NCBI GenBank assembly: GCA_019914945.1
Contig: CM034099.1
Location: 16,518,704 to 16,582,703 of the forward strand
Direction: 5' to 3'
DNA from: Typha latifolia
Taxonomy: Eukaryota > Streptophyta > Magnoliopsida > Poales > Typhaceae
DNA: 64,000 nucleotides
This document shows, piece by piece, positions 35,001 through 53,166 of the stretch. A program made the position numbers and the translations under genes. Position 1 is the stretch's first letter. Each line of letters opens with the position of its first letter. The notes beneath the pieces were generated by a model. That model was not told the DNA's origin, did not search any database, and worked only from the letters and a program-made list of their open reading frames with translations.

Positions 35001-37579
35001 GTCAACAATGAGTATCCGAGTTTGTATTGTATACTATAGCATCATAATTTTTATGACATGCTTTGTAGATATTGTAGATCTCAACAAAAAGCAACCTTGA
35101 GAATGTGCTTGACTGCTTGCTATACAGTATTTATGATTCTAACTTTTGACAATGACCATGATAAATAAAAGTTTTGGCTATCCATTGATCTTTTAGGTGC
35201 TAATTATTTGATAGGTTCACTCTATGCAATGCTCATTTCTGAAACTTTAGAGGATGTCAGGTTTCAGCATAAGTTCGAACTTCGAAGGGAACACAGAAGA
35301 TATCAAAATTTATGTCATATAGAGAAAAAGTTAAATCCTTCAATATTTGAATGCCAAAGGGAATATGAAGTTAGATCCTTCAAGATTTCACCATAGTTAT
35401 GCAGTTTTAATTTTTATCACCCAACTGGTTAACTTGAAACCTAAAAGATTTCCAAGCACCAATCTACTTGCTTATACTTGAATTTGGGCATCGTAAAGTT
35501 AATAACAATCATTAATATAAATATTTTCTCTCTATAATTTTTTTCTTGTGCCATGATGTCTCAATTTGCTCATTAGAATCTAATTCCTAATTTCCTACAC
35601 ATTGGTATCACCCAAATAAAATAGTAGATAAAGAAAATTGGCAAAGTCCTCAATCAATCATCTGAGCTAATTCAAATGGGCAGGTTACACTGGTACAGAG
35701 AGGTTCAAGTTTTTTAAGACTGTTCCAAATTATTATTTTTTCCTTTTCTTCTCATTGGTTACATTTCTCAGTTTCTTTTCTTCGTCCAGGACACAAATAA
35801 ATTAAGATGGTGAAAGATAAATATTTTGACTAACTATACAAGGAATGGACAATATGCATTTCTTTTGTGTTTCATTCAATAAGGATTAAGGAATGTGAGG
35901 GCAGTTATGCTCTTGAAAAGTAACACGAAAGGAGTTGGGGTGTATCTAACATCTATTACTCCTTCTCTTCCTCCTGTCAACTGGACCACATTTCCATCTT
36001 TTCTCCTTTCTAAAGCCCAAAACCTAGACTTAACTATCTAAACAACCAGCTCTCCTATAAATCAAACTTCTCTAGATTGGATGCGCACAATCCCTTCAAA
36101 TCTCTTTCGTACTTCTTTCCACCTATAATATTCCAAAGTAAACCTTTTGCAGGGTCCCAAATGCCTTTGGATTATCCTACAATCTAGTAATTGACACCCT
36201 TTAAGACTTTCCTACATCAGAGTTGGTAGTCTTTTTGTAAGTTTACAACTCTCGTGTTCAATATTGTAGGGAAATCAGCTTTCCAAATGGATATATTTTT
36301 ACAACATATAAACCAGCATGTTCACCTCCCTACCATTTATGCCCCACCTTTTGGGACACTGAAGCAATCAAAGATAGCACTACTCTGTAGTCTCTCATTT
36401 ATAGAACAGTATGGTTACATTGGTTGCATTCACTCAACACCGAGTGGCATTTGTATTGTTTAGGAAGTCTCCTCCTACATGATGGCATCAGGGCTGATTC
36501 CTGGCACCCATTCCCCAGATGTTTGATGATTTACAAATTTGAACTGATTTTCAAATGGTATGTATTGTGTTTTCTATGTGACCTAATAATGCAAGGAACA
36601 TAATCATCATTGAAAGATTATCGAGATTGCCCTTCCAAAAATTCTAAATAAGTTTTAAAAATCATCAATTGGTGAATGCAGCATTTATGTTTCAATCTCT
36701 AGCAACACTGTAATGTGTTACGCGGATCACATTATCTTTTTTATAATCCTATATAATCTTCACTTATTCACAACCAGATATATGCAAGGGTCATTAGCTC
36801 TGCAAAATCCTACTCTAGTTCATAGTGAATCTCTCATGCATAGGAGGCTCAAATAATATGTGCTGAATCAGTTTCATACCTGCGTTTGATAGTTCCAGAT
36901 GCAGACACTTCCAGAATAAAGACTCGCCAGAATCCTGCAGCATCAGAGATGCAAGATTGAACATCATTACAAGATGAATTTCTGAAGATCTTGTATACGT
37001 AATTACTTAAAAAGAAAAGGAGATAATTTGCATAGGAAATTATTAAGGCAATAAATTCAAGTGCTCGATGAGAATCAATAGCATGCTGATTTAAGAGAGA
37101 TTGAAAGAATATTGAGCATAGTATTCAATTACCATGGCTCGGTTGGATGCAGATCTACTGATTTTACTCTTTCTGATCTTTGGGCGAGTTTCCTCTGATC
37201 CAGTGATCATTGAAAGCAGATTAGATATATGAAATATGGAACATTTGAGCACAATGACCAACAAAGACATCAATAGATTAGAAGAATATATAGCATCAGC
37301 TTGAAGTACCTTGATTTCTAATCTGAGAGGCTGCAGCCACCACCGCGATTACAAAACCAACAAGAAAAGAAAAAACATTCGTCAGTCACTGCTCAAAACA
37401 CCAGATCTCGAGAAAATTCAAGGCTCTACCGGATCAAAGGCTCGTGAATCAAACTAGAATCTACGAATGCAATATATTTCGAAAAGATCACCGGCTTTCC
37501 TTCGAGCGAAACCAATTCTAAGCCAGATCTGGCATCCAAACCGGTGACCGAGAGGGGATGGATCACGAAAACGTACCAT
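23034..37579 (-). CDS. COPB2: Coatomer subunit beta'-like (COPI)
   Basis: Beta' is one of seven subunits of the COPI coat that drives Golgi-to-ER and intra-Golgi vesicle budding. Minus-strand exons, 5' to 3': 37579-37577, 37330-37310, 37194-37133, 36934-36880, 34734-34698, 34626-34301, 34208-34077, 33997-33849, 31980-31912, 31494-31344, 31268-31203, 30623-30435, 29759-29619, 29519-29445, 29300-29124, 29025-28934, 28844-28728, 28252-28138, 28015-27944, 27407-27211, 27096-27003, 26773-26667, 23942-23810, 23189-23034. They join without a frame break to 911 aa, the normal length. The protein has an N-terminal WD40 propeller ([21 protein letters not shown]-type repeats such as [15 protein letters not shown] and [11 protein letters not shown]), a second propeller, an alpha-solenoid ([18 protein letters not shown]) and a glutamate-rich tail. 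The first coding exon is just the ATG. The alternative C-terminus is described under the 3' region. Confidence 0.96.
31540..31715 (+). mobile_element. LINE fragment in COPB2 intron
   Basis: The short frame ending [17 protein letters not shown] matches the C-terminal tail of the same LINE lineage as the fragment at 12815-12950 (W.EVI+.D pattern). It is antisense to COPB2, lies inside the intron between exons 9 and 10, and is too short to delimit. Confidence 0.4.
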
Positions 37580-38339: not shown

Positions 38340-39150
38340 TTTGTCACCCTCCTAAATAGAACGGTTCAAAAAGTCATTGGGCTCAGTTCAAGCTCTAAAT
38401 GACCCAAGCCGTTTTTTTAGAGCTCAAATGTATTATTAAGCTTAGCCGAGCTGGAGCTAGCTCACTCGAGCTTAGCTTGCTATTGTGGCAATATACAAAT
38501 CAAAGGCTCTCTCTCAAGTCTCAACCCTAGAAAATCGACACCGCTCTCGTCCAAATCATCATGACCCCTATCCATGGATTCCCTCACCAGAGCCATTCCC
38601 GTCTTACTAAGCGTCTCCTCCTCTCTCCTTCTAACCCTTTGTCAAATCTTAGCAATCGAGCCTAGCATGATACTGGGGGTATCGTTAGGGTTTTGGTAGG
38701 GACTTTTGTGGTGCTAGCAATCGAGGATGGAGGATCCTTCTCGACTCCTGACAATGTTGATGTTGGAGGCTTTGCGAAGACTCTGGCAAGATCTCCCCGC
38801 CACCGATGAGGGTCGAACTCTCTATTTCTTCACCGGCAATGGAGGAAAGGCTCAATTCTTTAGATGAGACTGAAATGAAGACGAACTCGCACGACTCTCC
38901 TCTATATTGTCTCCTCAACTCTAACCCTAAGAACACTAACGCCCTCCGGCTTTGGTCCCTCATGTACATGAAACTTGAGTTCAGGGATGACAGTGAGGTC
39001 CTCTCCCTCCTCCATTGTCTCATCGAGTTAGAGATAAGCTAAGTCAAGCTAAGCTTTTCCAGCTCGAATCAAGCTTGAGTTGGGAAAATAATCGAGCCGA
39101 CCCGAGCTAGGCCCAATTCGCTCAAGCTTGGCTCATTTACACCCTTACTC
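38340..39150. mobile_element. GAGCTC-rich transposon with gene-like interior (family B, copy 1)
   Basis: The left side (TTGGGCTCAGTTCAAGCTC, GCTCGAG-type motifs to 38480) and the complement of the right side (GGGTGTAAATGAGCCAAGC, TTGAGCG, to 39040) are built from the same motifs as the ends of the element at 51518-52720. Between them lies GC-richer DNA (about 38515-39030) resembling a gene leader plus broken coding sequence. One frame (38830-39040, ERLNSLDETEMK ... LLHCLIELE) faintly resembles a TPR helix pair. No clean target duplication was found. The identity of the enclosed gene is unknown. Confidence 0.5.
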
Positions 39151-49256: not shown

Positions 49257-49870
49257 GTTCGAGACATTCTGATACATTAAAGCTAAAAGGACTAGAAGTT
49301 GTAGAAGAACCAAATGGTGATGAATAGTACGCCAGAGCTTTTGTGGTGAGCTCTTCGAATAAGAGTTTTTGGAGGAGTTAGGCAGCAGGACATGAGGCAC
49401 TCTAGATGTGGTACAATCCTAAATCAGGGAACTGTTGAGTGATTTAGTTTTTCTCCTCTTCACTCTGTAGTTAGTGAGCAGCAATTTTGTACAAAGAAGG
49501 CAGCAATGTAATAAAAAGAGTATAAATAAGATTTATATTTCCTGTTCATTGGTATATATTTGACGCCAGATTCTCTATAAACCAAAATAAATATTATAAC
49601 CAAATAGATGAATTACAAATTTATTTATTTATATAGGTGACTTTCAGAGATAATAACTAGAATTCAATAAAAATTGCTAACTTGATGAAGGATATTTACT
49701 AGCCTTAGCAAGTTATAGAATCATTACAGAAATCGCTTAATTCATTTAGCAATTTATATAATACTAATATTTTCCTATCTATGCGTATCAAAAATCCATC
49801 ACTAATAAAGCAATTTATATAATGCTAATATTTTCCTATCTACTTATTTTCAAAATTATAAAATTTGTGG
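49257..49870. other. SULTR3 3' flank
   Basis: The 3' untranslated region runs to roughly 49.55 kb, with AATAAAAAG near 49510 as a possible poly-A signal. AT-rich DNA follows, containing a short direct repeat (ATTTATATAAT(A/G)CTAATATTTT) near 49750 and 49811. No gene was seen. Confidence 0.5.
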
Positions 49871-50146
49871 ATAATTTTATTTTTACCCCACTAAACTATC
49901 TCCCTTTACCACAATGACTCCCTAAGTTTTTTTTTAACACATAATGACGCATAAACTATTAAAAATATCTTATTTAATCCCTTCCGGAAGAGTTTTGTTA
50001 CCTACGATGAGAATACTCTTAGATAGTTCCAATGCTAGCAACTCTCCAATTGGTACTGCTGCTCCAATAAAAAGTATGGCTTCCCAACGATACGAAAGAA
50101 GGAATGTTAGTACAATGCACCAATTAGAATAGTGAGTCACTGCTGA

Positions 50147-50745
50147 GAGCTCATCAGATCAGAATGGAGTCGAGGATGATCTCCACATTGCTAAGGTGAC
50201 CAGTGAGCACGACGAGGACCATCATGTACCGGATCTCAAGGCAAAGCATAATAACCGAAGCAAACGACAACTTAGCAAAAGGCCGAAGCTCATTGAACGC
50301 AGACCAGGATAGCCCTATCTACCCACCCTTGCACTTGCCCACGACATATACTATCTGAGACAAAACCACCAACCACGCCGAGAAGTTGAAGGCCACCGCC
50401 GTGCTAAGCAACTCCCAGTTGAAGACAAAGATGAAGAGGGCCGACGGTATGTCATGAATTATGAGCACCGCAAAGGCAATCCAAGTAATATCCATAACCT
50501 TGCTCTGTGCCCGTAGAAACTTCTGAGTAGAGAATTTGGTTACCGATGCAAATATCTAAAGAATGATGCTGATAGTGAATTTGCTGGCTTTGACGGCGAT
50601 AGCTTCATCTTGGCCTAAAAGCCTCAAGAGAGGAATGGCACATACGAAGAGTGGACATAGAAGGAATCTAGAGACGATGAGGATGACCCATGAATGTTGC
50701 ATGTACCTGACTGACTTCAAATACTTGCCCACATAGTAACTAGGA
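50147..50745 (-). pseudogene. MATE transporter (DETOXIFICATION-type) pseudogene fragment
   Basis: The minus-strand frame reads continuously for about 195 codons with two in-frame TAG stops (after ...KFTISIIL and after ...VGKCKGG). It is recognisable as the middle of a plant MATE efflux carrier: YVGKYLKSVRYMQHSWV, PLLRLLGQDEAIAVKAS, QKFLRAQSKVMDITWIAFA, NWELLSTAVAFNFSAW, LSWSAFNELRPFAKLSFASV, IMLCLEIRYMMVLVVLTGHL. This corresponds roughly to the third to seventh membrane helices. No frameshift was found. Intact family members are about 480-550 aa, so both ends are missing. A short upstream frame (around 50900, LCKEMCQFSRIS) might be a displaced N-terminal piece. Confidence 0.8.
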
Positions 50746-51517
50746 AAAAAGGAAGAAGACAGACAAAGAGATATAGATAGAGATAAATATGAGTCAGTGT
50801 GTATGATGAGGTGGCCGAGCTCCCTTCAATCCACCAATCCCAAACCTCCTCCACAACCGTTGCCCCCATACCAGAGTACGATAAGGTGGCCGAGCTAATG
50901 CGGGAGAACTGGCACATCTCCTTGCATAGCATGGGAGCGTCCCAGCGCTGCCTATGAGGGCACCTCGGAGGCGGTCGTGCACTAGGCCACGCCATCGCCG
51001 CTTAGGTATGGGGGACACCCTGTTTTGTGTAGGGTTGCCAAAGCATCGACCAATGGAAAGAAGAGGAGAAGGGAGGAGAAGCTGGTGTGCACGAGCTAGG
51101 GGAGTGCAGTGCCCAAGATGGGGGAGAGCTCGCTCGTCACCTTCGACATATTAGCGAGGAAGTGGGCTTCACCACTACTAGCACCAACAATTCGGCCTCC
51201 TCGTCTCCCTGGTATGACGAGGACGATGACGGAGAACATGAGTTTCAGTGTTGGCCAAGACACTATTTGCCACAATCTGCGACCCTATGAGAGAAAAGGA
51301 TATGTCGAGGAGGCAGAGTGGAGTGGAACGAGAAAGGGGGATTGGGGGCACAAGGGCAACAAAAATATTTAAAAAAATAAAATATTTAATATTAGCTAAG
51401 CTACTTAACTATCCCACTATTATAAGTAGTGAAAAATTTTAGTTAATTCACCAATTACATCAATGGCGTCAAGGGGGTCAAATATTTTTGATAGTTTATG
51501 AGGGTTATAGTATACTA

Positions 51518-52466
51518 GGGTTGTAAACGAGCGAGCTGGGCCCAGCTCAACTTAACTCAAGAGATAGATTTTTCTACCTCAAGCTTGGCTCGACTCGCCT
51601 CCAACTCGATTAAGCTCGAACTCGACTCAACAGCTCGTAAGCAATCCACATGATGCAACTCGAGTCAAACACTGTCATCGACCCGCAGTGATCTGTATTG
51701 AAGACAATGATCAGGAATCGCTTGTAGCTATCGGAGCAGCTTCGCCGCTCCCCATCGATGGCCTCTACATCTTTACCAAGTCTGAGCTCAAGTAGGCAAC
51801 TAACATCTATGATTAGCGCCTCACCTTAGGACAAGGCAGCGCCAACGAGGTCTATTTAGGGAAGCTCCCTAGCGGCCAGCATGTGGCAATCAAGCGCGTC
51901 TACTGTGAAAATAAGATCGTCGAGTTTTATAGCGAGGTGGAGATCCTTGCCAAGCTTCGACATTGGAGCCTCACAATCATTGTCGATTATTGAACCCTCA
52001 CTAACGCGAATCCTCTCCACAGCGAGAAATCCTTCTAAGAAGCTTCTCACCCCGACTAGCTCCCGATTACACAACGATGACGAGAAATTCACCCTAGCTT
52101 CACATGTCACCTCCCCGATCCTAGTTATGCAGCGACAACGAGAATTTCGCCCTAAGCTTCACATGCCCATCATCACCTCCGCAGCACTATCAGGAGCAAC
52201 TTAACTGCATCATCGATGAAGCTTGGAGATTCATAGCAAATGTCAGTTTTCAAGACCCAACGACGACGTCGTGCGACGCAAACTTGACATCCTAGATCGG
52301 GACAGAGTTCAGGCAAAGACAAATGGGAGCTTGAAGATAGAAATAAGTTTTGGTGGTGAAGATGGATTTTAGCTAAGAGTGTGTAGGAAGGAGTATTAAA
52401 GAGGCTAGAATTTTTATTTATATACACATCATAATATCCGTTGATCTAAGATCCAACGATTCTAAA

Positions 52467-52508
<42 letters not shown>

Positions 52509-52720
52509 GAGCCTAATCAAGAGGAACTTAAAGAAGCCGATGCTAGCTCAGCTCAGAGTGTACCTCAATACTGAAGCTCATTGTGGCTCATTGTGGCAAA
52601 TGGTGTCGTTCCCAAGCTCATTTGGAGCTTAAAAAAATCAGTTTGGCTTGGCTCATTTAGAGCTCGAGCCAAGCTCTAAACGAGCTGAGCCCAAAAAATT
52701 AGGGGCTTTTCTGACAGCCC
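51518..52720. mobile_element. GAGCTC-rich transposon carrying a kinase fragment (family B, copy 2)
   Basis: TATAGTATA occurs at 51506-51514 and exactly again at 52721-52729. Next to it, allowing three extra bases on the left, the ends begin GGGTTGTAAACGAGC and, complemented on the right, GGGCTGTCAGAAAAGC. Both subterminal regions are dense in CAGCTC, GCTCGAG and AAGCTTGG-type motifs. The interior is GC-rich and encodes part of a receptor-like kinase. The insertion splits the right arm of the element at 49871-52792, so it came later. An (AT)n tract lies at 52469-52504. Confidence 0.75.
51738..51994 (+). pseudogene. Receptor-like protein kinase N-lobe fragment
   Basis: One plus-strand frame reads GLYIFTKSELK-stop-ATNIYD-stop, then RLTLGQGSANEVYLGKL, PSGQHVAIKRVY and EFYSEVEILAKLRHWSLT. 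That is the entry to a plant receptor-like kinase domain: the F(T/S)...EL..AT..F pattern, the glycine loop (GQGSANEVY; the last Gly of GxGxxG is replaced by N), the VAIK lysine, and the helix C glutamate in the EVEIL segment. It then stops in VDY. Two stops and loss of everything after the N-lobe make it non-functional. It lies inside a transposon, which probably captured it. Confidence 0.8.
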
Positions 52721-52792
52721 TATAGTATAAAAAAGTTTAAAGAGTCGTTACGAGAAAAAATAGATAATTCAGAAGGTGAGAAAAAGATTATT

Positions 52793-53166
52793 AAGACCAA
52801 AACTCAGATAAATAAATTCATAACTCAGTGGGTGTAGTTTGGTGTGCAGATTAAAACCTGTCAAAAACTTCCAAAATATATAGCAACGTGCAAATAGAAA
52901 TCAAAATAATTCCGGACCAATTAACTCCTCAAGTAGTAACAATCAACCTGGAAGGCACCACATCAATCACAGTTCACTGTAATCCCCGTCCAAGCAAAAA
53001 AACCGAGGCTTTAAGAACTATGTATATTTCCTTCCCATAAAATCCCTTTCCAATCACATTCCAGAGGAACACAAGTACAAAGTAGGTATCCATAAATATT
53101 CTAAACATCCTACCATCTTTTGGAGAAAATCCTTCATAATTGATGAGGGAATTTACAACATGGTAA
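52793..53166. other. Intergenic and HSP70 3' flank
   Basis: This short stretch separates the transposon from the HSP70 stop codon and probably holds that gene's 3' untranslated region. Nothing else was seen. Confidence 0.45.

Follow-up and report, generated by a model that had tools for sequence, protein, structure and literature searches.

The cattail locus described here is an older Mutator-type (MULE) transposon that was later split by an unrelated hAT-type transposon. Both lie in the window, that is the whole stretch of 64,000 nucleotides of Typha latifolia DNA (contig CM034099.1) that was analysed, and positions are counted from its first letter. The original prediction held that two unrelated inverted-repeat families are nested at this place and that each encloses sequence from a cellular gene. 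Both parts are borne out, and each family also has copies that do not carry these genes.

Nested architecture of the two elements

The outer element (49868-52794) is a non-autonomous member of the Mutator superfamily with gene pieces inside, delimited by a terminal-repeat profile and by the family termini GGGATAATT; its length is about 1.71 kb once the inner insertion and the 8 bp duplicated by it are subtracted. The left terminal arm (49868-49985, forward strand) has 26 other genome matches at E<=5.2e-7. The right terminal arm, on the reverse strand, is found in two halves, proximal (51353-51515) and distal (52731-52794). Within this arm sits the inner element (51516-52722), a hAT-type transposon of 1207 bp that also has gene pieces inside. 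Its ends are TAGGGTTGT and TAGGGCTGT, and it is flanked by the two copies of its target site duplication, TAGTATAC (51508-51515) and TAGTATAA (52723-52730). The break points first proposed conveyed the nesting correctly but were a few bases off, and are corrected to the boundaries given here.

With the inner element excised, the outer left arm aligned to the reverse complement of the right arm with a score of 63. None of 2000 dinucleotide shuffles of the arms reached this score (mean 25.4, sd 4.0, maximum 46), which is the outcome predicted for terminal repeats compared with shuffled AT-rich sequence. A profile of the outer terminal repeat was then applied, built from 37 family sequences with the window copies left out and with loci duplicating one place removed beforehand. 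It gave four matches in the window at E<=10: the left arm (49880-49972, forward strand, E 3.2e-11), the proximal right half (51516-51354, reverse strand, model positions 65-228, E 7.9e-36), the distal right half (52785-52723, reverse strand, model positions 7-68), which alone reaches just 2.6 bits (E 2.3), and a chance-level match of 0.9 bits at 36609-36637. The two right halves thus meet at model positions 65-68, in the predicted order. Joining them raises the profile score from 119.0 to 128.9 bits; the exact join is left undecided by the score, because retaining both copies of the target duplication gives 129.7 bits. With about 118 bp on the left and about 227 bp (split) on the right, the arms have the length of Mutator terminal inverted repeats (about 100-500 bp).

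The outer arms belong to a multi-copy family, as had been predicted. Counting the window copy itself in each case, there are 27 genome matches for the left arm and at least 40 for the proximal right arm, the latter a lower bound from 40 of 81 candidates scored. Many of these copies form paired elements of about 1.1-1.7 kb whose termini read GGGATAATT. A perfect 9-bp duplication flanks 13 of 19 paired elements, compared with 4 of 342 mispairings; among the remaining pairings, three agree at 8 of 9 positions and one each at 7, 6 and 5. These figures, in which L072 is counted twice, cover pairings of 900-2000 bp that have a model start below 12 and sufficient flank, which excludes L026, for example. 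Long arms together with 9-11-bp duplications define Mutator-like elements, according to PMC3310237, and it is the excess of perfect duplications over mispairings that leads us to the MULE diagnosis. Several members (L023 and L078 compared with L022, L080 and L083) have quite different interiors. Some of the family likely carries cargo other than that of the window copy; a Pfam search of eight sampled open frames from other members returned no family.

At the window copy itself, the best candidate for a 9-bp target duplication agrees at 5 of 9 positions, no better than mispairings, and its arms are identical at 60 of 102 positions, among the lowest of 21 pairings (0.58 to 0.90 in the 20 others, median 0.83). 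We read the missing duplication and the divergent arms as decay of an old copy; a damaged end could produce the same picture. A related explanation is that the outer element already lacked its end when the hAT element inserted at its right edge, in which case 52731-52794 would be ordinary flank. The low score of the distal piece taken alone and the absent 9-bp duplication fit such a history, as does L011, a family member likewise without a match at distal model positions 1-57. The distal piece, however, begins at the right model position, so that 7-68 abuts 65-228, it adds about 10 bits on joining, and it scores 40 against the left arm by itself. We therefore consider a previously truncated element unlikely, and keep to a right arm split by the hAT insertion.

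The inner element was classified from its termini and flanks. The short terminal inverted repeats of hAT elements are of the TAGGG/CAGGG consensus type. In the window, TAGGGTTGT and TAGGGCTGT agree at 8 of 9 positions, and the flanks TAGTATAC and TAGTATAA at 7 of 8, as a short terminal repeat and an 8-bp duplication, the latter a hallmark of hAT elements (PMC8903248). Under strict rules for ends and duplication, 3 of 16 hAT-family sources pass, namely the window (7/8), L044 (7/8) and L049 (8/8), compared with 1 of 30 control loci, L059, which turns out to be the window locus under a different number. L034 has an 8-bp duplication of 7/8 with looser ends, and both L034 and L049 have related hAT ends without the gene pieces of the window element. 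A second stretch of the window (38379-39134) has inner-family ends of the GAGCTCGAGC type in inverted orientation (profile matches at 38379-38425 and 39134-39033); no 8-bp duplication was found at this stretch. In a plain pairwise test the longer inner arms are weak, with 17 of 2000 shuffles scoring as high. This, and the AT-richness of the arms, would be expected if the locus held only chance similarity and old gene duplications without transposons, an explanation that we reject as next to impossible given the outer-arm shuffles, the 26 other left-arm matches and the 9-bp duplications of the outer family.

Captured gene pieces and their timing

The outer element was predicted to enclose a MATE carrier; this identity is right but incomplete, since a UNE10/PIF exon is also present. 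The MATE (DTX-type) piece (50063-50733, reverse strand) comprises one coding exon and about 119 bp of intron beyond the open frame. It matches L010 (C14:878236-878906) at 81% over 50063-50705, and at 564 of 671 positions when extended to 50733. The MatE domain is found at 2.8e-23 in L010 and at 2.4e-4, below the cut-off, in the window piece. Because the similarity runs past the donor's open exon frame, the piece was copied from DNA, and an origin as a retrocopy is ruled out. Directly adjoining it is a first-exon piece of a UNE10/PIF-type bHLH gene (50734-51285, forward strand) with 5' leader, ATG and coding sequence, identical to L014/L017 (C2:15383378-15384092) at 441 of 549 positions. In a protein search this donor gene is 100% identical to the Typha latifolia transcription factor UNE10-like. 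Pfam gave no hit for its exon 1, the product of which presumably holds the phytochrome-binding (APB) motif, and a marginal HLH match (3.3e-4) in a later piece of the gene. For both cargo pieces, donor-like genes that look intact are located elsewhere in the genome.

The same two pieces, in the same order and with the same junction, recur at L011 (C8:2488806), and a decayed version is found at L013/L019 (C8:1809473), in a search in which 40 of 75 candidates were scored. L011 and the window also have in common a rearrangement with deletion close to the start of UNE10, a change that the gene does not have. At this place the sequence of the UNE10 donor differs, and the window contains a 21-bp near-repeat, GTATGATGAGGTGGCCGAGCT (50801-50821 and 50876-50896, 90%); the rearrangement around it, seen in L011 as well, marks one shared capture. 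L011 further contains about 0.9 kb of extra sequence (L011:415-1320) between the left arm and the MATE piece, with end motifs like those of the hAT family. Judged by these motifs, another hAT element may have inserted independently into this chimera.

The inner element begins with a left hAT backbone (51516-51662) common to L033, L044, L054, L057, L091 and L092; in L044, L054, L057 and L091 the match ends at 51661-51662, where the kinase piece starts. This piece (51663-51992, forward strand) covers the juxtamembrane region to the early kinase domain of a SPARK-type receptor-like kinase and is identical to L030 (C6:1606629-1606958; SPARK 1e-13, Pkinase 1.5e-40) at 271 of 330 positions. A receptor kinase had indeed been predicted, but a second piece had gone unnamed, that of a subtilisin-like protease (51998-52320, reverse strand, the edge near 51998 set by eye from the junction alignment). 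It matches L037/L041 (C1:1747219-1747461) at 188 of 242 positions over 52020-52320, and L037 has the I9, S8 and PA domains. The right hAT backbone (52332-52722), with subterminal motifs of the GAGCTCGAGC type and an AT microsatellite (52469-52504), is common to L034, L035, L036, L044, L049 and others. The kinase piece joins the subtilase piece at one and the same point in the window, L031, L032 and L033, among the 40 of 54 candidates scored for the inner element. By eye, a short stretch bounded by two CAATCC repeats on the left edge of the kinase piece in the window appears to have been lost in L031-L033.

The nesting had been taken to give a relative date for both captures. This is not borne out: the MATE-UNE10 chimera also lies at L011 and L013, and the kinase-subtilase chimera at L031, L032 and L033. 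Since each chimera recurs at other places with identical internal junctions, both captures are older than these insertions, and what follows from the nesting is the order of insertions only, outer first and inner second. Nor do the divergences from the donors rank the captures. Kimura two-parameter (K2P) distances are 0.185 (0.146-0.222) for MATE, 0.235 (0.189-0.287) for UNE10, 0.214 (0.156-0.279) for the kinase and 0.278 (0.204-0.370) for the subtilase; with values this similar (0.19-0.28) there is no clear capture order. Given the shared chimeras and these distances, nesting was dropped as a date for the captures.

Taken together, we hold it highly probable that a pre-loaded MULE inserted here, that a pre-loaded hAT element then entered its right arm, and that both decayed. 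The MULE lineage had already copied a MATE exon with flanking intron in antisense orientation, together with the 5' portion of a UNE10/PIF gene in sense orientation. A member of this lineage, whose arms, chimera and other copies are observed, inserted at this locus, probably by means of transposase supplied in trans. A non-autonomous hAT element from a lineage already carrying the kinase-subtilase fusion then entered the right arm, where it duplicated 8 bp. Most likely the captures happened earlier and in other locations, through template switching while a broken element was being repaired; we infer this because the pieces are fused directly, an intron is retained and deletions lie between short repeats. 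Template switching guided by microhomology is described for animal Pack-TIRs in PMC8277862, and the fusion of neighbouring insertions for Pack-TYPE elements in PMC8903248. Elements of both families would subsequently have been moved by transposases in trans. Candidate sources of these are present in the genome, with 101 matches to the MULE domain and at least 150 to the hAT-dimerisation domain (150 of 463 candidates scored). No MULE transposase was found inside the outer-family arms in a comparison at the DNA level that covered one of the MULE-domain matches: this nearby case, C12:252763, lies outside the element, with no second arm in 7.7 kb.

Possible cargo exchange and present state of the pieces

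Related hAT copies differ in the gene piece next to the subtilase. In L040, L044, L054, L091 and L092, a BTB/POZ piece (donor L090, BTB_2 6.8e-13) stands directly before the same subtilase edge, the place of the kinase in the window, L031, L032 and L033; neither BTB nor kinase was found in L038, L039 and L057. L044, L054, L091 and L092 share the backbone that stops at 51662 in the window. At the junction the donor subtilase reads GATCCCTC, and the two types of chimera have GA-CCCTC or a decayed version of that sequence. Two open frames from BTB-type copies gave no Pfam family.

Judging from these junctions, the hAT lineage may have swapped its cargo in modules, the subtilase being acquired first, BTB next, and the kinase then replacing BTB in the branch of the window, a scenario to which we give even chances. 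The replacement would have left both borders in place, the backbone edge at 51662 and the subtilase edge, and the evidence for it lies in few bases. Under the modular scenario, copies with BTB, with the kinase and with neither would be layers of one repair-driven shuffling process.

One copy, L039, stands out in two respects. Its subtilase piece (L039:1515-1758) is 95% identical to the donor over 244 bp, compared with about 73-88% for the aligned pieces of other copies, and despite this closeness it has the right junction common to the other copies. Such closeness would be explained if the piece had recently been copied again from the gene, or if L039 is young. The stretch after the subtilase piece (L039:1240-1500) is common to several hAT copies, and its equivalent in the window copy has apparently been deleted between GGGAGCTTGGAGA repeats (by eye). 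A search with this stretch returned 20 matches and no clear donor gene; it is possibly an extra gene piece.

Stops and frameshifts break the captured pieces, and the UNE10 frame terminates five codons past its ATG. Differences from the donor were counted by codon position. They are near even for MATE (25/187, 29/186 and 34/186), unlike real MATE paralogs (30/18/88 and 40/20/83), and near even for the subtilase (18/80, 17/81 and 19/81); the counts are 33/165, 25/163 and 41/166 for UNE10, and L011 has 28/26/45 of about 189 in its MATE piece. In the kinase piece of the window there is an excess at third positions (13, 15 and 31 of 110 each), and the other kinase copies give 10/11/18, 12/14/17 and 14/5/10. 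Some past constraint or donor-side change may underlie this excess, which could come from silent changes in the donor or from loss of methylated C at GC-rich third positions. On the sequence evidence, both elements are decayed, encode no working protein and most likely do nothing at present.

The contrary proposal is that the chimeras of the window work as new genes or as regulators, acting through chimeric coding transcripts, which the original prediction had suggested, or through antisense or small RNAs against the MATE donor. Relative to the UNE10 piece, the MATE piece does lie in antisense; promoters can reside in long MULE arms according to PMC3310237, and the kinase excess could be counted in favour. 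Against this stand the stops and frameshifts, the near-even change in MATE and subtilase and the early end of the UNE10 frame, and we regard a present function as very improbable compared with decay.

Comparison with known systems

The locus is a Pack-MULE with a nested Pack-hAT, and as such a well-preserved example of a process already known: published work covers Pack-MULEs and Pack-hATs as well as insertions nested in MULEs (PMC8903248; PMC3310237; PMC3903597). We found no paper on a Pack-hAT inside a Pack-MULE in the open-access literature, in a search not aimed at proving absence. What a single locus makes visible is that nesting dates insertions and not captures, which is relevant to the stratigraphic dating of gene capture. 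The hAT copies with readable junctions, together with their donor genes, form a natural series for testing how host-gene pieces are captured and swapped by hAT elements, a mechanism that is still debated. With this finding, a small monocot genome (214 Mb) outside the grasses joins those having both Pack-MULEs and Pack-hATs.

Like the Pack-MULEs of rice, maize, tomato and other plants, the outer element has long Mutator-type arms, no transposase and host-gene pieces with an intron, and belongs to a multi-copy family with 9-bp duplications; it differs from them in having no visible target duplication and an arm split by a hAT element. The inner element resembles the Pack-TYPE hAT elements (Pack-hATs) of PMC8903248 in its hAT ends, 8-bp duplications, host-gene pieces and related copies with different cargo. 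In Pack-PIF cluster 18 of maize and rice, described in the same source, one gene piece is present and a second was added in a subgroup, whereas in the window hAT family one piece seems to have given way to another. Insertion of other transposons inside MULEs is likewise reported for maize and rice, in over one third of the candidate coding MULEs of PMC3903597. That survey concerns transposase-coding MULEs, whereas at the cattail locus host and guest both carry captured host genes.
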